Of a DNA stretch of 50,467 bases, positions 1 to 41,575 are shown piece by piece. This DNA is from Clostridia bacterium (GTDB lineage Bacteria > Bacillota > Clostridia > TANB77 > CAG-508). The notes beneath the pieces are model-generated. The model was given only the letters and a program-made list of their open reading frames with translations, searched no databases and was not told where the DNA came from. The position numbers and the translations under genes are program-made. The stretch covers positions 1-50,467 of the forward strand of contig JAFROW010000007.1 of the NCBI GenBank assembly GCA_017429505.1. Reading direction: 5' to 3'. Each line of letters begins with the position of its first letter. Position 1 is the stretch's first letter.

Positions 1-28
1 CCTCTTTGTGATAAGTTATCTCTACCAT
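1..28 (-). CDS. 5' end of a gene running off the window
   Basis: A GGAGG ribosome site at about 37-42 sits seven to eight bases ahead of an ATG at 28-26. The nine codons inside the window read MVEITYHKE. This opening resembles the first residues of TnpV-type transposon accessory proteins, but nine residues cannot prove a family. The neighbouring phage and nuclease remnants make a mobile-element gene plausible. Confidence 0.4.
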
Positions 29-123
29 AATAAAATCCTCCTAAAATTTAATTTTACTACTTTTTAGAACTATATTTTATATCGTTTTCAGCTATCTACA
101 AATATAAATTTTTAAAAGTGTAC

Positions 124-276
124 TTAACTTAAGTCTACTGGCGTTGGACTTTCTGACAATACACTAATTACATCTACTACACTAAAAAAATACTCCTCCT
201 TTTCAGCATCCCATACACTTCTTATTTCTTTCCCCTCAAACAACTTTGTTATTGTTTCTAATTTATTATTTTCCAT
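124..276 (-). pseudogene. Truncated BRO-N / phage antirepressor-type protein
   Basis: About 50 residues remain, starting at an ATG (276) with a good GGAAGGAG ribosome site. The segment KLFEGKEIRSVWDAEKEEYF followed by VVDVISVLSES matches the N-terminal BRO-N domain of phage antirepressor and DNA-damage-inducible proteins, which normally continues through a conserved N-P-R-x-Y-W stretch. Here the frame leaves the family after SPTP and stops, so the rest of the domain and any C-terminal part are missing. The ribosome site is intact, so a short peptide may still be made. It lies directly downstream of the nuclease fragment at 296-490 on the same strand. Confidence 0.65.
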
Positions 277-295
277 ATAATTTGCTCCTTCCTTT

Positions 296-490
296 TTATT
301 TTGATATGCGGTCACAATTTGTGATCACTTTTTTAAATTCATCATACATTCTAACATACATATCCATTTGTCCAACATCTTGATGTGTTATCTTTTTAGT
401 TTTTAAATCAATTAATACAAAGCATTTTAATATATAGTTATAAAAAACTAAATCGACATAGTATTCTTGTTTAATAATTTCTAAATCCAT
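296..490 (-). pseudogene. C-terminal remnant of a YhcG/DUF1016-type PD-(D/E)xK nuclease
   Basis: The 64 codons contain YYVDLVFYNYILKCFVLIDL followed by KTKK, then GQMDMYV. This is the PD-(D/E)xK core seen in the C-terminal domain of YhcG/DUF1016 proteins, with D in VDLVFYN and the D-x-K of IDLKT as likely metal and catalytic residues. The large N-terminal domain is absent. After DEFKK the frame runs into unrelated codons (VITNCD) and stops, where family members continue to a DNPTIG-like segment. A ribosome site (AGAAGGAA) precedes an ATG at 490, but open codons continue upstream without family similarity. I read it as a deletion remnant. Confidence 0.65.
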
Positions 491-801
491 TTTTATTCCT
501 TCTTTCTCTATTTTAATTCTACAATAAATATATAATTATTAATTATATTACTGATTTTCACCTACCTTTCCGAAATTTTTGCTTGATTTTAGAAAAATAT
601 CCTTCCCCTTAAAACATTAATCTATTGAATACAATAATCGAATTAAACTTCCCCATAAAAATTTAATTTATGATATAAAATTTTTTAAAAAAATTATTTG
701 CAATATTTAAATTATTTATTTCATATAAATGTTATAATTCACAGCCATATATCATTTTTTTATAATATACTATGAAAACTAACATATGCATATATTAACA
801 T
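491..801. other. AT-rich gene-free stretch
   Basis: More than 300 bases of strongly AT-rich DNA without a credible reading frame, ribosome site or RNA gene. It separates the mobile-gene remnants from the terminator of the prepilin/lectin gene. Confidence 0.6.
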
Positions 802-862
802 AAAAAAAGAACAATGTCAATAAAAAGTCTAACTAAAAATAAACTTTTTATCGACATTATTC
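802..862 (-). terminator. Rho-independent terminator of the prepilin/lectin gene
   Basis: Read on the minus strand, GAATAATGTCGATAAAAAGT pairs with ACTTTTTATTGACATTGTTC around a loop of about 14 bases and is followed by seven T. The stem is nearly perfect. It lies about 200 bases beyond the stop of the gene at 1060, so the transcript would include the palindromes at 930-991 and 1010-1027. Confidence 0.75.
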
Positions 863-929
863 TACATATTTCAACATATCAATATATTTATAATTTCTTA
901 CATTTTTTCCAATTACATATATTTTTTTA

Positions 930-991
930 CTACCATGGTAGGGAGCGAAAGCTTTTGCTTACATTTAAAATGTAACCTTTCGCTCCATACC
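930..991. repeat. Nested palindrome downstream of the DGR-like variable region
   Basis: A 12-bp palindrome (CTACCATGGTAG, 930-941) runs into a larger hairpin. Arms 937-951 and 977-991 match at 14 of 15 positions (GGTAGGGAGCGAAAG against CTTTCGCTCCATACC). Inside them lies a second hairpin, TTACATTT-A-AAATGTAA (959-975). The block stands out as GC-rich in very AT-rich DNA and has no T-run, so it is not an ordinary terminator. It lies 70-130 bases after the stop codon of the lectin-domain gene. Confidence 0.7.
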
Positions 992-1009
992 TATTTTAAT
1001 ATTCTATTC

Positions 1010-1027
1010 AAGGCTATTTACAGCCTT
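1010..1027 (-). other. Small hairpin just after the variable-region gene
   Basis: AAGGCT and AGCCTT (1010-1015 and 1022-1027) form a 6-bp stem with a 6-base loop, 33 bases past the stop codon. Known DGRs carry a short hairpin or cruciform just after the variable repeat that promotes mutagenic homing. The position fits loosely; the stem is shorter than the Bordetella phage example. Confidence 0.35.
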
Positions 1028-1049
1028 TTAAAATTTATCGCATGCAGTT

Positions 1050-1170
1050 CTTAGGTCTACTAATAAAGTGAAACACGCAACCCGATGCCGTAATTGGAAT
1101 TACTCGTAGGAAAGTAGAAACGGAAAGATGCTGGATAGACGTCTCCGCTACCGCCGAAAAGGCCTCCACG
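1050..1170 (-). other. Putative DGR variable repeat (VR)
   Basis: A counted 100-base stretch here (from the RGG codons to VS) is 51% GC, while the rest of the gene is typical AT-rich DNA. It encodes the pattern RGG-x(9)-PAS-x-R-x(3)-PT-x-S-x(3)-GIGLRVSLY, the end of a formylglycine-enzyme-like C-type lectin fold. This is where DGR target proteins diversify, with variable residues interspersed among fixed codons. No template repeat or reverse transcriptase lies in the window, so both would have to be elsewhere. Boundaries are approximate. Confidence 0.6.
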
Positions 1171-2407
1171 ATAAGCACATGGGAAACTAGTTCCGTTATA
1201 TGAATAAGTTGCATGTTCTAATGTCCATTCCCACATATTTCCTGCTAAATCATATATATTTTTCTTACTATTTGTATCTGATGCTCCTGTTGTTAATAGT
1301 ATTTTATCTGTACTTGTTGTTCCGATTTTTCTACTAACATTCCCTTCTACTGTTACTTTATTTTCTGTTGCTTGTGTATAGTCTATATATACGTTCCAAG
1401 GACTTGCTACACTATATTTTCCTCTATTGATTTCAAATGGTTGATTGTAATAATTTCCCCAAGTTTCACTATTATCATTTAAAAAGTTAGTTTCTACTCC
1501 TTTATTACTTAAAAATCTTAATACTAAATCCCATTGTATTCCAAACATTAAACTACTGTTAACACTTGCACTACTTGAAGCTTTTGATGCTATTGTTTGT
1601 GCTTGAAAACATTTTACATAGTTTATTGGATATAAATCTTGTTTTGACTCTGCTTTTAGAGCTTCTGTTGGATCATTTTTATTTCCTCTTGGAGATGTTG
1701 TTCCTGCTTCATATCTTCCTATCCAGAATCCTCCATTTGTATATACACTTTTTAACATTTTTTTGTATAACTCTTTATATTCATTACATGTTAGTCCACA
1801 TCCGTTTTTATCTTCTTTATTTGAACTTTCACCCTCTAATTTTCCAGTTCCATCATACCATACATCTGTATATCCATATGTAGATGTCTTTCCATAAGTG
1901 CCATCACTTGTTGTTCCATCTTTTATTAAATCTCCATCACTTGCATCCTTTGTGCAATAAGTTCTTAATGCTGTTGCTATTGCTCTATAATAGTCATCTG
2001 AATTTTCTTCTGCACTTGCAACTTCTGTATATACTGGTCCTGTTCCATCATTTGGTACTTCTATCCACACATATTCATTTCCTTCTGAATCTGTTATAAC
2101 CAATCCTTCGTCAACAGTGCTTTCTCCTTCTATTTTTGTTGCTGCATACCCTGCTGGAATCTTTACTCCATTGTAGTCTTCTCCATTTACATTTGATGCT
2201 GCTTCCAACATTGTTAATCTTCTTTGTTCTTCTCTTGATGATTCCTCTGTTTTATCTCTTGCTTGTCCCGCTCTACTTAGTATTGAATTATCTCCAGATA
2301 GCATTGAAATTGATATTCCTGCTAATATTAACAAAACAATGATTGTTATAACTAAGGCTATAAGAGTAATTCCGGTTATTTCTTTTTAAATTTATTTTTA
2401 TCTGCAT
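1060..2407 (-). CDS. Prepilin-like surface protein with C-terminal FGE/C-type lectin domain (5' frameshift)
   Basis: Downstream of the break the frame reads KEITGITLIALVITIIVLLI and LAGISISML, a class III-type prepilin leader with the transmembrane helix found in many clostridial pilin-like proteins. About 350 residues follow, ending in NIYDLAGNMWEWT and RGG...GIGLRVSLY, the formylglycine-generating-enzyme/sulfatase-modifying fold used by DGR targets. The likely product is an exported, surface-displayed binding protein. The only well-placed start (ATG 2407-2405, behind an AGGAGGA) is out of frame: a run of five A (2383-2387) needs six to give MQIKINLKKEITG. The in-frame codon just before KEITG is a stop, and the next start is a poor TTG at 2334. 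Sequencing error, phase variation or a true mutation are all possible. A terminator follows at 802-862. Confidence 0.75.
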
Positions 2408-2621
2408 TGTTCCTCCTTTTTTATATTTCTCTTGAGTTAATTTTTTGTTTCTAAATCAGCTTGATTTTTTATGCACATTTTTTTTTATAGCCTTTTTGGA
2501 ATAACTCTTATTTAATTTTCAATGTGCATAAATTTTCTGCTGATTTACTTTTTCATCTTATATTTAATCATATTATAAATTATTTTTCAAGAGATTGTTC
2601 ACTATTTTTAATTTTTTTATC

Positions 2622-2654
2622 AAAAAAGACAGAATATATTTTAATTATTCTGTC
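2622..2654 (-). terminator. uvrA terminator
   Basis: On the minus strand GACAGAATA and TATTCTGTC form a 9-bp stem with a 9-base loop followed by six T, about 40 bases past the uvrA stop codon. Confidence 0.85.
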
Positions 2655-2695
2655 CATTAAAATAATTCGTTTTTAGTTATTAAAACATATTTTAA

Positions 2696-5599
2696 TTAAA
2701 ACTTCAAAAACTCCCCAGTAAAGCTCTTTTCATTTTTAGCAACCTGCTCAGGAGTTCCAATTGCAACTACTGTTCCTCCTCCATCTCCACCTTCAGGTCC
2801 AAGGTCTATTATATGGTCACAAGTTTTTATTAAATCTAAATTATGTTCTATTACAATTATTGTATTTCCTGTATCTACCAATCTTTGCAAAATATTTATT
2901 AATCTATGAACATCTGCTATATGAAGTCCTGTTGTAGGTTCATCTAAGATGTATAGAGTTTTCCCTGTTGCTCTTTTTGAAAGCTCTGTTGCAAGTTTTA
3001 CTCTTTGTGCTTCTCCACCAGATAGTGTGGTTGAAGGTTGTCCAAGTTTAATATAGCCAAGTCCTACATCATATAAAGTTTGAAGTCTTTGCTTTATTTT
3101 TGGTATTTTATCAAAAAATTCTAATGCTTCTTCAACCGTCATATCAAGCACATCTGCTATATTTTTGTTTTTATATTTTACCTCTAATGTTTCGTAATTG
3201 TATCTTTTTCCTTTACATACCTCACATGGTACATAAACATCTGCCAAGAAGTGCATTTCTATTTTGTGAACACCATCACCATTACAAGCTTCACATCTTC
3301 CACCTGGAACATTAAAACTAAATCTTCCTTTGTTATATCCACGAAGTTTTGCTTCATTTGTTGTTGCAAATATATCTCTTATATCATCAAAAACTCCTGT
3401 ATATGTTGCAGGGTTTGAACGTGGAGTTCTTCCTATTGGAGATTGGTCAATATTTATTATTTTGTCTATATTCTCTAGTCCTTTTATCTCTTTGCATTTT
3501 CCAGGCTTTTCATTTGCTCCATTTAGGTCTCTTGCAATTGTTTTATATAAAATTTCATTTACAAGTGTTGATTTTCCTGAACCTGAAACTCCTGTTACGC
3601 AGTTAAATACTCCAAGTGGAAATTTTACACTTATATTTTTTAAGTTATTTTCTGTTGCTCCAACTATTTCTATATTTTTGCCTTTAACCGGTTTTCTACG
3701 TTTTTTTGGAATTTCTATTTTCTTTCTTCCACTTAAATATGCTCCTGTAATTGAACCTTCTACTTGTTTAATTTCTTCTGCTGTTCCTTGAGCTATTAAG
3801 TTTCCACCATGAACTCCTGCGCCTGGTCCAATGTCTATAATCTGGTCTGCTGCATACATTGTGTCTTCATCATGTTCTACAACTATTAATGTATTTCCTA
3901 AATCTCTTAACTTTTTAAGAGTTGCAATTAATTTTGCATTATCTCTTTGATGAAGTCCTATACTTGGCTCATCTAGGATGTATAAAACACCTGTAAGTCC
4001 TGAGCCTATTTGCGTTGCAAGTCTAATTCTTTGTGCCTCTCCTCCTGATAATGTTCCAGCACTTCTTGAAAGTGTTAAATAAGATAATCCTACATCTATT
4101 AAAAACTGAAGTCTTTTATCAATTTCTATTAAAATCATTTCTGCAATAAGCTTTTCTGTTTCTGAAAGTTCTATGCTTCTTAAATAACTTTGAATTTTTT
4201 CAATAGACATTGATGTTAATTCATTTATATTTTTATCTCCAATTCTAATTGATAAAACTTCTCTTTTAAGCCTTGCACCTTTGCATGTTGGACAATCAGA
4301 ATTGCTCATATACATTTCATAAAAATCTCTCATTCCTTGAGATTTTGTTTCACTATGACGTCTTTCGAGTGTTGGTAAAACTCCTTCAAATGGAGCAGTA
4401 AACTGCCTTGTTCCAATACTTGACTCATATTCAAAATCTATTTCTTCATCTCCTGTTCCATAAAGAATTTTTTCTAAAAATTCTCTTGGAAGCTTTTTGA
4501 TTGGCTTTTTTATATCTACTCCATAATGTCTTCCAATTGATTCAAAATACATCTTTGCCATTGTGTCTCCACGTTTCATTGTACTTGCTCCAAAAGCTTT
4601 TACTCCATCATATAATGTTTTGTTTTTATCTGGAATAATTAAGTCTTCATCCATTTTCATTAAAAAACCAATTCCAAGACATGATGGACATGCTCCCATT
4701 GGTGCATTAAAAGAAAACATTCTAGGAGTTATTTCAGGAAAACTAAATCCGCAATCTGGACATGCATAATTACAGCTAAATAAAATTTGCTTAGAACCAT
4801 TTGTTTCAGCATCTTTCATCTTTGAGCTTGCAGTATCTCTTGCTCCTAAATCATTTAATTTTTTCTTATTTTCTTCTAACTTATTTGCAACTTCTATTAC
4901 AACTAATTTTTCTGCATGAGATAAAGCTGTTTCAACAGATTCTGTAAGCCTACTTTTAATGTCTTCACGAATTACCAATCTATCTACAATAATTTCAATA
5001 TAATGCTTTTTATTTTTATCTATTTGAATATCTTCTGATAAATCGAAAACCTCACCATCTATTTGAACTCTTACAAATCCAGCTTTTCTGTAGCTTTCTA
5101 GTTCTTTTTTGTATTCACCTTTTTTACCACGAACAACTGGTGCTAAGACTTGTATTCTTGTTCCTTCTTCTAGTTCTAAAACTTTATCTACAATTTGGTC
5201 TAAAGTTTGTTTTTCAATTTTCTTGTTACAATTTGGACAATATGGAACACCTATTCTTGCATATAAAAGACGAATATAGTCATATATTTCTGTAACTGTT
5301 CCAACTGTAGAACGAGGATTTTTTGAAGTTGTTTTTTGGTCAATCGAAATTGCAGGCGAAAGACCTTCTATTTTTTCAACATTTGGCTTTTCCATTACTC
5401 CCAAAAACTGCCTTGCATAAGAAGATAAACTTTCTACATATCTTCTTTGCCCTTCTGCATAAATTGTGTCAAATGCTAAAGAAGACTTACCAGAACCTGA
5501 TAAGCCTGTTATTACAACCATCTTGTCTCTAGGAATTTCTACATTTATGTTCTTTAAGTTGTGCTCCTTTGCGCCTTTTATTACTATTTTGTCATTCAT
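2696..5599 (-). CDS. uvrA: UvrABC system protein A (excinuclease ATPase)
   Basis: UvrA dimers scan DNA and load UvrB at bulky lesions in nucleotide excision repair. The 967-residue product has the full family layout. A first P-loop GLSGSGKS lies at residues 32-39, a zinc-finger insert with CPDC and CPSC pairs near 280-310, and an LSGGEAQR signature follows. A second P-loop (GVSGSGKST, about 655), a CEAC/CEVC zinc finger and a second LSGGEAQR complete it. Length is normal, with no break. The fic gene lies 38 bases upstream on the same strand, so the two may share a transcript; a terminator follows at 2622-2654. uvrB and uvrC are not in the window. Confidence 0.98.
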
Positions 5600-5637
5600 T
5601 TTTTAATTTCATTCCTTTCTCGATTTGCATAATTTTG

Positions 5638-6243
5638 CTATAAATCTTCTGTTTTAAATTGTGTATATCCTTCATAAAAATAGCTTGCATCGATGCCTTT
5701 CATATATACTTCTCTATCATTAATCTTATCTGTTAATGCATCTTTTAGCAATTGCTTAATTTCAACATCTTTTATTGGACTACGTTCCATTGCAAGTAAA
5801 TAGTCGTTTTTATCTACCTTACTCCAGTCGATTACCATTTTTAGTTCTTTTTTTAGGATTAAATCTAGCCATATTCTTGTACTACGTCCATTTCCTTCTC
5901 TAAAAGGATGAGCCACATTCATTTCAACATATTTTTCTATTATTTCATCAAAAGTGGATTGTGGCATTTTTTCAATATTATTTAATGCTGTTTCTAAATA
6001 TGTAATTGGAGCAAATCTAAAATTTCCTTTTGAAATATTTACCTTTCTAATTTCTCCTGCAAAAGTATATATTTCTTCAAATAGATATTTGTGTATTTTT
6101 GAAAGGCACTCAAATGTACCTGGCTCTAATGTTTGTAAATATCCATTTTCAAATAGTTCGTTAGCTTTTTTCTTGCTTATTTTTTCTTCTTCTCTTGCTA
6201 ATTCAACTTCATCTGTAATATTTAATTTATTTTCTAATACCAT
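5638..6243 (-). CDS. Fic-domain AMP-transferase, class III (C-terminal self-inhibition)
   Basis: Fic enzymes move AMP, or sometimes another nucleotide part, from a nucleotide to a target protein side chain. The 201-residue product carries the catalytic loop HPFREGNGR at residues 112-120, matching HxFx(D/E)GNGRxxR with the essential His112. Near the C-terminus S187-YFY-E191-G192 matches the (S/T)xxxE(G/N) inhibitory helix motif. Its position at the C-terminus defines class III Fic proteins, such as the single-domain Neisseria enzyme. The protein should therefore be held inactive by its own glutamate until that helix is displaced. No antitoxin partner is adjacent. It lies 38 bases upstream of uvrA; the target is unknown. 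Confidence 0.92.
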
Positions 6244-6335
6244 ATTTACACCTTCTTTTTTATTTGAAACATCTTAAATCTCTCTTGAAAATATACTAAT
6301 AAATACATTCTAGCATCTTGTTGCATAGATACTTT

Positions 6336-6935
6336 TTATTCGATCAATTTTAAAATTTCTTCCATAATTTTTTCTGTAGTCTTCTCTACAACTTCTTTAT
6401 CTTTTCTATTTTTCTTTTCTTCAGAAAAATCTATTGGCTTTCCATAAGTTACATAAGCCTTTCTAAAAGGTTTATCTCCGCCTTTTACTCCTACTGGAAT
6501 GACTACTGCATCTGAATTTAACGCAAAAAAAGCAGCACCATCTTTAACTTTTTCACCTTTAGCTAAACCATTTCTTGTTCCTTCTGGAAAAATCGCAATT
6601 GCCTCATTGTTTTTAAATGCTTTTAAAACTTCCTTAACAGCTTTCATGTCTTTTGCATCTTTTTCCACCAATATTTCGCCAAACAAATTACCTAAATGAG
6701 CAAATAACTTATTTTTTGCAAGTTCTTTTTTTGCTAAAAACCTTACATCAGGTCTTTTGCAAGTTGATTCTATTAATGGTGGATCTAAAAAGCTTTTGTG
6801 ATTTGCGCAAAGTAAAATTGCTCCACTTCTTGGGATATTTTCTGTTCCTGTAATTTTTGCTCTATATACAATTTTGCAATACAAATATATTGCACCTCTA
6901 ACTATTGCTTTTCTAATATTTTTTATAACTTTCAT
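6336..6935 (-). CDS. plsC: 1-acyl-sn-glycerol-3-phosphate acyltransferase
   Basis: The enzyme adds the second acyl chain to lysophosphatidic acid at the membrane, giving phosphatidic acid for phospholipid synthesis. The 199-residue protein has the acyltransferase block I NHKSFLD, with His46 and Asp51 as the HX4D pair, and block III FPEGTR at residues 116-121. An N-terminal hydrophobic segment (about residues 10-25) probably holds it at the membrane. The start has an AAGGAG ribosome site. It follows cmk on the same strand after about 90 bases, the usual clostridial cmk-plsC order, so co-transcription is likely. The gap holds a GTCCC-type short repeat. Confidence 0.93.
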   Translation of the reverse strand: MKVIKNIRKAIVRGAIYLYCKIVYRAKITGTENIPRSGAILLCANHKSFLDPPLIESTCKRPDVRFLAKKELAKNKLFAHLGNLFGEILVEKDAKDMKAVKEVLKAFKNNEAIAIFPEGTRNGLAKGEKVKDGAAFFALNSDAVVIPVGVKGGDKPFRKAYVTYGKPIDFSEEKKNRKDKEVVEKTTEKIMEEILKLIE

Positions 6936-6960
6936 GTTTTCTCCTTCTTTAGGTTCTTTT

Positions 6961-6975
6961 TTGGGACGGAGGAAA
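6961..6975 (-). repeat. Short CCTCCGTCCC motif upstream of plsC
   Basis: TTGGGACGGAGGA on the plus strand (TCCTCCGTCCCAA on the minus strand) lies just upstream of the plsC ribosome site. The same core recurs at 48521-48535 upstream of mfd. Such GTCCC-ended short repeats resemble REP-type sequences; no full copy or transposase is present. Confidence 0.5.
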
Positions 6976-7028
6976 AAAGTAACCTCACCTTACCTCATCA
7001 CTTCTATCCTTATCGCACCTCAACTATT

Positions 7029-7700
7029 CTATTTTTCTAATTTTTCGTCTATTATTTTTAAAATTGTTTCAACTACTTCGTCTATGCTCATATTGGTTGA
7101 ATCTACTACTATTGCGTCATCGGCTTTTACAAATGGTGCAATATCTCTTGTGCTATTTATCCTCTCTCTTTCAATTACATTATTCAAAATTTCTTCATAA
7201 GATGTTTGTATTCCTTCTTTTTGATTTTGAATAAATCTTCTTCTTGCCCTTTCTTCTGCAGAACAATCTAAAAATATTTTCACATCTGCATTTGGAAATA
7301 CAACTGTTCCAATATCTCTTCCTTCCATTATAATATTTTGATTATCTCCCATTTTTTGTTGCATAGGAGTCACTTTATCTCTTACTTCTTTTATAGCAGC
7401 AAATAACGAAACATAATCATCTATTTTTTTTGTCCTTATTTGACTTCCAACATCTTTGTCATTTAAAAAGAACTTCTGCTCTCCATTTTCCAGCTTTAAT
7501 TCAATTTTTATTTTGTCAAGTATTTTATTAATTCCATCAATATCTGTTGGTTTAATATTATTGTTCAAACAATCTAATGTAATACATCTATACATTGCTC
7601 CTGTATCTATTGCTACTAAATTTCTTTTTTCTGCAACTAATTTTGTTATTGTTCCTTTACCTGAACCTGCAGGTCCATCTATCGCTACAACAAATCCCAT
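7029..7700 (-). CDS. cmk: Cytidylate kinase
   Basis: Cmk phosphorylates CMP and dCMP with ATP in pyrimidine nucleotide recycling and lipid-precursor supply. The 223-residue product begins with the P-loop GPAGSGKGT (residues 9-17). It continues with DTGAMYR, the CMP-binding segment, and MEGRDIGTVVFP with the lid region after it, and its length is normal for the family. The ATG has a GGGGAG ribosome site. A TTTACA-17-TATTAT promoter lies at 7828-7856 on the same strand. plsC follows downstream. Confidence 0.97.
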   Translation of the reverse strand: MGFVVAIDGPAGSGKGTITKLVAEKRNLVAIDTGAMYRCITLDCLNNNIKPTDIDGINKILDKIKIELKLENGEQKFFLNDKDVGSQIRTKKIDDYVSLFAAIKEVRDKVTPMQQKMGDNQNIIMEGRDIGTVVFPNADVKIFLDCSAEERARRRFIQNQKEGIQTSYEEILNNVIERERINSTRDIAPFVKADDAIVVDSTNMSIDEVVETILKIIDEKLEK

Positions 7701-7827
7701 ATTTATTACTCCCCTTTAAAAAACTATTGACAATTAATAATTAATCTTTTCGCGCAGTTTAGACTGATTTTTTTTGTCCGTGCATTCATTTTGTACCAGT
7801 TCTTTTCTGCTCGCTTTTACTTTCTAT

Positions 7828-7856
7828 ATAATATCATTTTTTTGACATTTTGTAAA
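7828..7856 (-). promoter_or_regulatory. Promoter of the cmk-plsC transcript
   Basis: Minus-strand -35 TTTACA (7856-7851) and -10 TATTAT (7833-7828) are 17 bases apart, about 130 bases ahead of the cmk start codon. Confidence 0.6.
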
Positions 7857-7875
7857 CATATTTTTTGTTTATTTC

Positions 7876-7907
7876 AAAAAAACAGACACCTTCCACAAGT
7901 GCCTGCT
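7876..7907 (-). terminator. Terminator of the 7941-9026 gene
   Basis: Minus strand CAGGCAC pairs with GTGTCTG (one G-U pair) around a 9-base loop and is followed by a run of seven T, about 35 bases after the stop codon. Confidence 0.8.
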
Positions 7908-7940
7908 ATTTTATAAAAAATGTTTATTTTTATATTATAA

Positions 7941-9026
7941 TTATCTATTCTCTCCTCTTCCTTCTGGAAGTGCATTACTTGGTAATTCGATTCTAACTTT
8001 AATTCTAAATACATAAGTTGCTGCTCTAACAATCTTACTATTTTTAAATCTTTGCCATAGTGATGGTTTAGCTTCAAATGTAGTTTCATCAATATATCGT
8101 TGTTGTTCAGTTTCAAATGTTCCTTCAGTTCCAATTATTTCACCTACACTAGTTTTTTCTGTTACTCCAGTTGTAGCTGTAGTAGTAGATGTTGTTCCTA
8201 TAACTTCTGTTTTTGCAACTTTTGCTCTATTTGTTACACCAACTGTTGTGTCAACAGTAGATGCTGTAGTTGTTTCAGCTAATGTTTCATTTACTAATTC
8301 TTCTAATGTTTCATCTGTTTCAGTTTCTTTAGTAATTGCAAGTTCAGTTGTCTTAGCTTTCTCATCTATTGAATTTTGAGCTGCCACAGCTTCTAATTGT
8401 TCTTCAGGTGCTGGAATTAGTTTTAATGCATCAGCAACTTCTATTCCTATGTAACTTAAAGCTTTTGAACTATCCTCTAGTCTTTCCATATCTATTTCTA
8501 TATGTAAGTTTGCTTCTAAGTTATTTATTCTTGCTTTTACTTTTTTTACTGCATCTTTATATTCTATAGAATCTGTTTCTTTAGAATTTCCAATTAATCT
8601 TAAGTTTGTTATTGTTTCCTCATCAAATTTTTTAGAAATCTTTGTAACCTCTTCTTCCCATTCATCTCCTGCTTCTGTTACTCTTTCCAATGTATCTTTT
8701 AAAACGCCTGATAAAATAATATTTTCTTCCCTTTGTTTGATTAATTTTTCTATTTTTTTGGTATTTTCTTCAAATTGTGATGTTGCAAACTCAACTAACC
8801 CGTAGGCAGATTTATATATGCCTATAGGAAAATTTTTCTTCTTTGGATATTCTATTAAATATGTTTTTATAGATTCTATTAAATCTTTAAAATAAGAATC
8901 TTCTTCTAATTCTATTATTTGTTTTTTACTATTTGGATTTATAAGTTTTTGAACTTTATCAATATTTGATAAAATCTTTTCCTCCGTAATTACCATGCTC
9001 ATATTTACTATGCCAAATTTAGACAT
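7941..9026 (-). CDS. Unrecognised 361-residue protein with helical N-terminal half and Thr-rich linker
   Basis: I do not recognise a family. Residues 1-210 are rich in Lys, Glu and Ile and look helical, possibly coiled coil (for example RLEDSSKALSYIGIEVADAL). Residues about 245-310 form a low-complexity linker dominated by Thr, Val, Glu and Ala. A short basic tail (SLWQRFKNSKIVRAATYVFR) ends in GRGENR. There is no signal peptide or clear membrane helix. The ATG has a GGAGG ribosome site. It stands alone: three 11-bp tandem repeats lie upstream (9121-9153) and a terminator follows at once. It could be a structural, cell-envelope or scaffold protein; this is a guess. Confidence 0.8.
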   Translation of the reverse strand: MSKFGIVNMSMVITEEKILSNIDKVQKLINPNSKKQIIELEEDSYFKDLIESIKTYLIEYPKKKNFPIGIYKSAYGLVEFATSQFEENTKKIEKLIKQREENIILSGVLKDTLERVTEAGDEWEEEVTKISKKFDEETITNLRLIGNSKETDSIEYKDAVKKVKARINNLEANLHIEIDMERLEDSSKALSYIGIEVADALKLIPAPEEQLEAVAAQNSIDEKAKTTELAITKETETDETLEELVNETLAETTTASTVDTTVGVTNRAKVAKTEVIGTTSTTTATTGVTEKTSVGEIIGTEGTFETEQQRYIDETTFEAKPSLWQRFKNSKIVRAATYVFRIKVRIELPSNALPEGRGENR

Positions 9027-39337: not shown

Positions 39338-41575
39338 TTATATTTTTTCATGTATAGTTCTGTTTATTACGTCTAATTGTTGTTCTCTTGTTAAACTTGT
39401 AAATTTAACTGCATATCCTGAAACACGAATTGTAAGTTGAGGATATTTTTCTGGATGTTCCATAGCATCTTCTAACAAACTTCTATCAAATACATTTACA
39501 TTTATATGATGTCCTGTTTGTGTAAAATATCCATCAAGCATATTTACTAAATTGTTTACTCTAGTTTTTTGAGTCTTTCCAAGAGTATTTGGAGTTATAG
39601 CAAAAGTAAATGAAATACCATCTTCTGCACTTTCAAATGGAAGTTTCGCAATGGTGTTCATTACTGCTAATGCACCATGTGTGTCTCTTCCATGAAGTGG
39701 GTTTGCTCCAGGTCCAAATGGTGCTCCTGCTTTTCTTCCATCTGGTGTGTTTCCTGTTGCTTTTCCATAAACAACATTTGAAGTAATAGTTAAAATAGAT
39801 AAAGTGTGTTTTGCATTTTTGTATGTTGGATGTTTTCTTAAACATTCAATAAATTTTTCTATAATATGAACTGCAATTTGGTCAACTCTGTCATCATCAT
39901 TTCCATATTTAGGGTATCTTCCTTCAACTTCAAAATCTACAGCAACACCTTTTTCATTTCTAATAGTTTTTACTTTTGCATATTTTATTGCTGAAAGTGA
40001 GTCTGCTGCAACAGAAAGTCCTGCAACTCCACATGCCATAGTTTGTAAAATATCTCTGTCATGTAATGCCATTTCTAAAGATTCATAGCAATATTTATCA
40101 TGCATATAGTGTATTGCATTTAGTGCTTTAATATATATTTTTGCAACATAATCCATCATTTGCTCATATTTTGTCATTACTTCTTCGTAATCCAAATATT
40201 CTGATGTTATTGGTTCAAATAGTGGTGTAACTTGTTGACCTGTAACTTCATCTATTCCACCATTTATTGCATAAAGCAAAGTTTTGGCAAGATTTGCTCT
40301 AGCTCCAAAGAATTGCATTTGTTTACCAATTCTCATTGGAGAAACACAACATGCTATTCCATAATCATCACCTAAAGTTACTCTCATCATATCATCATTC
40401 TCGTATTGAATAGCAGAAGTTTTAATTGAAAGTCCTGTTGCAAATCTTTTAAATGCATCAGGAAGATCTACTGACCAAAGTACTGTTAAGTTTGGCTCTG
40501 GTGCAGGTCCAAGATTTGTTAAGGTGTGAAGCATTCTAAATGAATTTTTTGTAACCAATGTTCTTCCATCTATTCCCATTCCACCAATACTTTCTGTAAT
40601 CCATACAGGGTCTCCACTAAATAACTCATTATATTCTGGTGTACGTAAAAATCTAACTAGCCTTAATTTCATAACAAAATGATCCATTAGCTCTTGTGCT
40701 TTTGCTTCTGTCAATTCTTTATTTTTCAAATCTCTTTGAATATATATGTCTAAGAATGTTGAAGTTCTTCCTAAACTCATTGCTGCACCATTTTGATCTT
40801 TTATTGCTCCTAAATATCCAAAATATAGCCATTGTATAGCTTCTTTTGCATTTTTAGCAGGTTTAGAAATATCATATCCATATTTTTTAGCCATTCCTTT
40901 TAATGCTTTTAAAGCTTTTATTTGTTCTGCTATATGCTCCCTTTTTTCGATTATATCCTCAGTAAATTCATCTACATCAATTTCTTCTAACTCCTGTATT
41001 TTGTTATCTATAAGAGCATCTATTCCATATAAAGCAACACGTCTGTAATCACCAATAATTCTTCCTCTTCCATATCCATCAGGTAGCCCTGTTAAAAGTT
41101 TATTAGTTCTTGCAACTCTAATGTCTGGTGTATATACATCAAAAACTCCATCATTGTGTGTTTTTCTTATTGTATGGAAAATGTTATCAATTTCTGGATC
41201 AACATGACGACCATAAGCCTCACAAGATTTTTCTACAATTCTTATTCCACCATTTGGCATAATTGCTCTTTTTAAAGGGGCGTCTGTTTGAAGTCCTACA
41301 ATTTCTTCTAAATCTTTGTCTATATATCCTGCAGCAAATCCATCAACTGTTGAAGGTGTTTTTGTATCTATATCTAAAACTCCACCTTCAGATTCTTTTT
41401 CTTTTTTGTATAACTCTAAAACCTCGTCCCATAATTTTTTTGTCTTTTCTGTTGGCTCTGCTAAAAAGCTTTCATCTCCTTCATAAGGAGTGTAATTCTT
41501 TTGTATAAAATCCCTTACATTTATTTCTGTTTTCCAGTCTCCTTCTATAAATCCATTCCATTGTTTAAAATTCAT
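39338..41575 (-). CDS. pflB: Pyruvate formate-lyase (formate acetyltransferase)
   Basis: PflB splits pyruvate with CoA into formate and acetyl-CoA in anaerobic fermentation. The 745-residue protein has the catalytic cysteine pair in [12 protein letters not shown] (about residues 406-407) and the glycyl-radical loop RVSGYAV with Gly720 near the C-terminus, as in true PFL. Length is normal. The activase gene follows about 200 bases downstream. A TTGACA-like promoter element lies at about 41740-41765, but its -10 is not certain. Expression in a strict anaerobe would be high. Confidence 0.98.

Follow-up and report, generated by a model that had tools for sequence, protein, structure and literature searches.

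The stretch of DNA analysed here (the window) is the whole of contig C6, 50467 bases long, of a Clostridia bacterium (genome G000) whose 1.98-Mb assembly, in 14 contigs, is 96% complete. An open frame of 441 codons on its minus strand (1063-2385, stop codon 1060-1062) is most likely the gene of a target, or variable protein, of a diversity-generating retroelement (DGR), and was probably left over, with a frozen variable repeat (VR, 1063-1194, minus strand), after the loss of the cassette that had diversified it. DGRs are a known bacterial means of hypermutating a chosen site. The product is predicted to use a prepilin-type N-terminal helix as a hold and to present a C-type-lectin domain of the formylglycine-generating enzyme (FGE) subtype. 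In mutagenic retrohoming, a template RNA would be copied, its adenines being read as random bases, and the copy would be written over the VR, such that the C-terminal ~40 residues of the lectin domain would be rewritten. The responsible cassette would have consisted, as in sister species, of a reverse transcriptase (RT), Avd, MutS_I and a template repeat (TR) of the 'RGGNYNNN..NPASNRNNNN..' type. This FGE-type cassette would have rewritten the VR and then been lost; it is not in the assembled genome, where a different DGR now occupies contig C10. From these data we infer past retrohoming at the locus, loss of the cassette, surface display and ligand binding.

Adenine-directed signature of the variable repeat

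The G+C content of positions 1060-1169 is 48%, a value that, over the whole contig, only 30 windows of 110 nt (0.06%) attain, 29 of them beginning at 1060-1088 and one at 39647; the gene ahead of the VR has 32%. A reading of the window made from the sequence alone (the sequence-only reading) had assigned 51% G+C to the last ~100 coding bases. The spike is real and 51% is attained in the best 100-nt window (1077-1176), the figure for the last 100 coding nucleotides being 46%.

The VR was compared, in gap-free alignments, with templates of two sister species. Relative to the G019 template, 17 of the 19 Asn positions were changed versus 6 of the 24 others (Fisher test, 3.6e-5) and, base by base, 31/48 A positions differed versus 28/81 non-A positions (Fisher test, 0.001). 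The G002 template gave 17/19 versus 10/24 by residue and 35/50 versus 28/79 by base. So, the signature against sister-species TRs is clear at Asn positions and weaker by base. The codons of the VR that align to Asn end in C or T in 18 of 19 cases, against 140/396 in the gene ahead of the VR (p 9e-8), and codons ending in C amount to 13/40 in the VR and 20/384 elsewhere in the gene. This codon and base pattern is the footprint expected of A-to-N rewriting of AAY codons, which explains the G+C spike.

Directly behind the VR, on the side of the initiation of mutagenic homing, the stop codon and a conserved 3′ motif together take up 1030-1062 (minus strand). The window VR ends in CACTTTATTAG, an ending also found in G019 and G066, where the TRs have CACTCTAATA at the same place; in the sister pairs, CTCTAATA is found in TRs where the VRs have CTTTAT or CTTTGT.

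Templates and probable trans action in sister species

Repeat pairs were screened for A bias, with at least 75% of the mismatches at A in one copy, and the pairs quoted here were confirmed by gap-free alignment; low-complexity A-rich matches and cross-locus rows also given by the screen were set aside. TR/VR pairs of the same protein type were found in G019, G046, G066 and G018, with 24/25, 28/29, 22/24 and 16/20 mismatches, respectively, at TR adenines, and in G002, where the pair located on the template's own contig had 23/23. Because the screen selects for bias, the A bias of these pairs is not by itself independent proof. The sister templates lie in short frames, with RT family matches on the same contigs, and that of G019 translates as RGGNYNNNGSNNPASNRNNNNTTNSNNN. 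The order in G021 is VR, MutS_I-like, Avd-like, RT and TR, with a family match for the RT only.

A profile (A1) constructed from four templates (G019, G018, G046 and G002) plus the window VR was run on 58 genomes of the genus and matched in 37 of them, the four input templates by construction. Outside the input, short-frame, RT-adjacent templates were matched in G021, G007, G038 and G001 with E-values from 2.7e-18 to 3e-17. At least one match in a frame of less than 80 codons was present in 21 of the 37 genomes, such a frame being a proxy for a TR by which a gene truncated at a contig end would also score as a template.

In G002, ten repeats, nine of them on five other contigs, fit a single template (52 A, 84 non-A), with 16-24 A changes and 1-9 non-A changes; the fit limit was set at 12 non-A mismatches or fewer and seven G002 loci were scanned, of which L018 gave no fit. 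Among these ten, the repeat at C3:62804 is in a short frame. This distribution suggests trans action within the genus. The picture in G048, which has a relative of the target, resembles that of the window's own genome (G000): its single VR match is in a long frame, short-frame matches are absent, and the RT matches all fall in stop-bearing frames.

Two other loci of the genus were observed in passing. In L231 (G065:C41:1-9500), six further TR/VR units of ~154 nt, spaced by ~500 nt, stand at 5000-8198 beside one target with its VR at 8045-8198. The unit at 6603 fits as its template, with 15/17 mismatches at the unit's A, and the other five fit worse, with 10-17 of 28-33 mismatches at A; these repeats are possibly an array of alternative templates. 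In L057/L233 (G007:C26), an RT gene (PF00078, E 7.7e-39), which we take to resemble a group II intron RT, lies behind an FGE-type VR, from about position 700 of L057.

The lectin-like domain

The portion at 1075-1284 (minus strand) matched the FGE-sulfatase family PF03781 with E 0.0038, below the curated cut-off, and the C-terminus gave a profile match to SUMF2 (1y4j, E 0.0011). In Foldseek comparisons, the predicted fold matched FGE and DGR variable proteins, the clear top being the DGR variable protein TaqVP (5vf4), with TvpA also high. In the predicted model the VR lies at the C-terminus of a C-type-lectin/FGE fold, and the likeness to the formylglycine-generating enzyme is one of fold only. 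The FGE/C-type-lectin fold proposed in the sequence-only reading is thus borne out by the family, profile and fold matches.

As to a phage origin, no relative was found among viral contigs, searched by protein and by a 28-nt motif, and PHROGs matches to the window protein reached only E 0.1; phage tail-fibre models have the same fold (best E 6.7e-6).

The Asn pattern, the sister TR/VR pairs and the fold support the original proposal that the gene is a DGR target. The opposite view, an ordinary FGE-like protein with an odd patch of G+C and no DGR, is scarcely credible: it has to face the changes at Asn positions, the C/T codon ends, the family's TR/VR pairs in sister species and the position of TaqVP as clear top fold match.

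The DGR of contig C10 and the search for a fitting template

Family searches of G000 yielded one RT and one Avd above cut-offs, both at the C10 locus, and no second RT or Avd, one Avd match at E 0.16 being below cut-off. The C10 RT (C10:110676-111257) is an open frame with an RT family match and an IGNMTSQ motif, which we take as a sign of a DGR-type RT; in NCBIfam its best matches, none of which reached the cut-off, were to group II, Drt and retron models. The Avd match is to bAvd PF22296. The C10 DGR (L001/L079, G000:C10:109176-112757) comprises a target with its VR, MutS_I, Avd and TR, with the RT on the opposite strand; there are two MutS_I-domain proteins, one on each side, the second beside the RT. 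Its TR and VR differ at 21/51 A and 4/125 non-A positions, those four at positions 156-173 of 176.

This DGR, whose RT frame is open and which has an A-biased TR/VR pair besides its Avd match, might be thought to diversify the window gene in trans, the kind of action that G002 suggests for the genus. However, its template belongs to another family (..SYAVRPV type) and does not fit the window VR. Tried as source of the window VR, the C10 TR differs at 64 of 111 non-A positions at its best place in the window, and it had no fit in the places scanned (the window plus 28 loci of G000, 164 kb counting overlaps). Trans diversification by C10 is therefore close to refuted. The sequence-only reading had supposed a target diversified in trans, which is supported for the sister species G002 and not for the window gene, the C10 template being unlike.

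The window gave neither an RT family match nor a match to a template, which agrees with the absence of both reported earlier. A DNA search of 1030-1220 across the own genome returned itself and a 16-nt match only. The window VR was scanned, with A positions masked, against loci L001-L098 and the window, and no fitting TR was found, the best non-self matches being A-rich runs; as a positive control, the G019 VR recovered its own TR with 1 non-A and 24 A mismatches. The A1 profile, run on G000 at E<=10, matched the window VR and a weak C4 paralog and nothing else; therefore, the assembled genome yielded no fitting template. The search of the genome proposed in the earlier reading, for an RT and a near-copy template, is thus answered in two ways: there is an RT, at C10, and no fitting TR was found.

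A second FGE-type protein with a VR-like C-terminus (YRGGSYNYSNSPSGRDYSRPGNTYDDNGSRLSLYIK) is encoded on the minus strand of L097 (G000:C4:128438-129742), with no fitting template in the loci scanned. It is possibly another stranded target.

Leftover or live target

Since the C10 DGR has another template and another target, the window gene is read as a leftover, and the data favour this over a live target acted on in trans. The main rival is that the target is live, a fitting RT/TR cassette lying in the unassembled ~4% of the genome, maybe next to the contig end, and acting in cis or in trans. We consider this rather unlikely. It is in its favour that the window is all of C6, with the target ~1 kb from the end, that the TR and VR of G019 start 1.4 kb apart, that the G021 cassette is directly behind the VR, and that assemblies could break at DGR repeats. 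On the other hand, the VR is followed in the window by a hairpin, by a terminator-like site and by a fragment of a nuclease domain (YhcG_C), and the RT and Avd searches of the 1.98-Mb assembly, MutS_I not having been searched, gave matches above cut-off at C10 only.

Several observations count against a leftover DGR target. With an assembly 96% complete, in 14 contigs, and a target ~1 kb from a contig end, the cassette could have been missed. About a third of the non-A bases of the VR differ from the sister TRs too (28/81 and 28/79), and what leads us to infer past A-directed diversification is the pattern of codons together with templates of other species, a cognate TR not being among the evidence. 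In 16 of the 37 genomes with A1 matches, these were only in frames of at least 80 codons, as scored by eye, a number that incomplete assemblies could in part inflate. Finally, the Foldseek TM-scores to TaqVP are low (0.31/0.35, rmsd 7.2).

Prepilin-type leader and start of the gene

The prepilin-type leader and hydrophobic helix are encoded at 2314-2373 (minus strand). The window protein has the layout of such a leader, a Gly followed by a long hydrophobic stretch (GITLIALVITIIVLLILAG), and in a 34-sequence alignment of relatives the leader columns were mostly invariant or nearly so. The N-terminus gave weak profile matches to flagellin, geopilin, MshA and PilA (E 0.14-0.26). Against a pilin assignment, the leader has Ala at the site of Glu5, a residue of classic pilins, and the Pfam N_methyl model had no match to the window protein at E<=1; on the G048 relative, N_methyl gave E 0.25, under the cut-off. 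The own genome encodes a prepilin peptidase (PF01478, C1:43349) and, for the assembly ATPase, has two T2SSE matches above cut-off (C10:54665 and C10:55872). The prepilin leader seen in the sequence-only reading as fused in front of the lectin is upheld, its frame being open and its motif conserved in the 34 relatives, but the start is off-frame.

A ribosome-binding-site-like AGGAGGA and an ATG (2405-2407) are found at 2405-2417 (minus strand), and this ATG is one base out of frame with the leader. Among the related loci compared, 83 of 86 leaders with the same motif have an in-frame start, the window gene not being one of them. The off-frame start may be a true lesion or an assembly error. It is quite possible, if on the less probable side, that the gene is dead, a pseudogene by virtue of the shifted start, with a VR that is merely decaying. 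This would be compatible with a leftover target, and in agreement with it are the contrast with the 83 in-frame leaders and the failure to find a cognate TR. However, all 441 codons are open, including those of the VR, the offset would be explained by one wrong base in the assembly or by a different start codon, and L141, a related gene from a named database record, is likewise without an in-frame start.

In L139, the start of an FGE-pilin gene near 5900 has a tract of GA dinucleotides that separates an upstream ATG from the prepilin leader, ahead of which no in-frame ATG, GTG or TTG was found. This gene could be phase-variable.

Matches to the window protein at E<=1e-20 were obtained in 13 of the 36 genomes searched, the own genome counted, and G002 alone had 25. 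The relatives among database records are metagenome-assembled genomes of uncultured Clostridia and Clostridium sp., with chicken and wild mice in some titles.

The 3′ flank

Two palindromes behind the stop codon had been pointed out; both are present, the one at 937-991 strong and the one at 1010-1027 weak. The former (minus strand) is a large hairpin with an asymmetric internal loop and 18-nt arms of 89% complementarity, which folds far better than shuffles (RNA fold z -5.1) and occurs in single copy in the own genome. It is common to G048, where it is also directly behind an FGE-type VR (E 1.3e-12). The idea that it is a genomic repeat was discarded: at E<=0.1 some match turned up in 29 of 58 genomes, yet apart from the window itself the G048 match alone spans the element, the next best having E 8.8e-4 over 45 nt. 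Between window and G048, inner-stem bases differ on both sides, as would be expected of a kept structure, two sequences being too few for a covariation test; a G048 stretch cut short of the end of the outer arm had a fold z of only -1.7.

The two targets are in different gene neighbourhoods. Of the window frames of at least 120 codons, the target alone matched the G048 target locus, and one weak further match between window and G048, 25% identical, is elsewhere on C5. A greater conservation of the 3′ flank than of the coding sequence was not borne out, identical bases in the aligned regions being 93/122 in the flank, 255/352 in the coding sequence ahead of the VR and 74/119 in the VR. Within 150 nt of 36 related C-termini, a hairpin with z of at least 3 in magnitude was found in 15 (G048's own reached 1.4 in the same scan), so hairpins behind VRs are frequent and not universal, and a hairpin as a rule behind VRs was discarded; part of them may be terminators.

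The small palindrome at 1010-1027 (minus strand) has a 6-7 bp stem and a region fold z of -0.8, and is absent from the G048 relative. Of the two elements that were to be compared with other FGE-type targets, it is 937-991 that recurs behind another VR, that of G048. The size and distance of 1010-1027 are roughly those of published DGR hairpins. The terminator said to follow the palindromes corresponds to a terminator-like stem-loop with a T tail at 812-859 (minus strand). Rfam gave no match in window 1-3000 up to E 5.

Close to the contig end, two short overlapping frames on the minus strand (124-490) look like gene remnants; one matched the YhcG PDDEXK nuclease domain (YhcG_C, Pfam, E 6.7e-18) and the other no Pfam family at E<=1.

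Relation to known systems and meaning

There is precedent for DGRs as such, for FGE-type variable proteins, and for remote as well as leftover targets. The TvpA-family targets of Treponema denticola are a like case, including targets in isolates without core DGR components, and a closely parallel case has been described in strain SP32 (PMC4891356). They differ in that the window protein has a prepilin-type helix, none being mentioned for the TvpA family in the text consulted, and in that the target family of G002 is far larger. TaqVP of Thermus aquaticus (5vf4) is described as single-domain and monomeric, while the window protein has a pilin-type helix in addition, and the search for its cognate TR found none. 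The DGRs of Thiohalocapsa PB-PSB1 are similar in that there are incomplete loci and targets for which trans diversification is the best explanation (PMC10907252), but the FGE-domain targets of its DGR 6 carry STAND-NTPase modules, where the window protein has a prepilin-type leader. DGR-driven variation of pilus subunits is described for the tip pilins of Bacteroides (PMC12632263); those are type V (lipoprotein) pilins, as opposed to a prepilin-type leader in uncultured Clostridia. As to the flank, the target-site hairpin of the BPP-1 DGR is likewise an inverted repeat behind the VR and outside the TR/VR homology, and published DGR hairpins have a stem of 7-10 bp and a distance of 4-34 bp (PMC3240598). 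The palindrome at 1010-1027 is near both values, its loop not being GRNA, and 937-991 is far larger, more distant and provided with an inner loop.

No report of prepilin-type DGR targets in Clostridia was found in the literature, a weak negative, as subscription papers and preprints were outside the search. What is apparently new, none having been found in the literature searched, is a target family of such size on a prepilin-type leader in Clostridia.

A broader proposal, which we put forward as speculative and more doubtful than any of the readings of the gene as leftover, dead or live, is that in species of this genus the pilin-anchored variable lectins form large families dispersed over the genome, on which one or a few transient DGR cassettes act in trans. 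Stranded targets, the window gene among them, would persist as a memory of frozen binding variants, and their VR 3′ end and flanking hairpin would be preserved for rewriting by a newly arrived, fitting cassette. The genus would have families of prepilin-type DGR targets, about twenty repeats being counted in G002 alone. Cassette-borne, trans-served and stranded targets across its species would allow tests of how a repertoire is gained, shared and frozen, and the same genus would allow testing what the diversified lectins bind.
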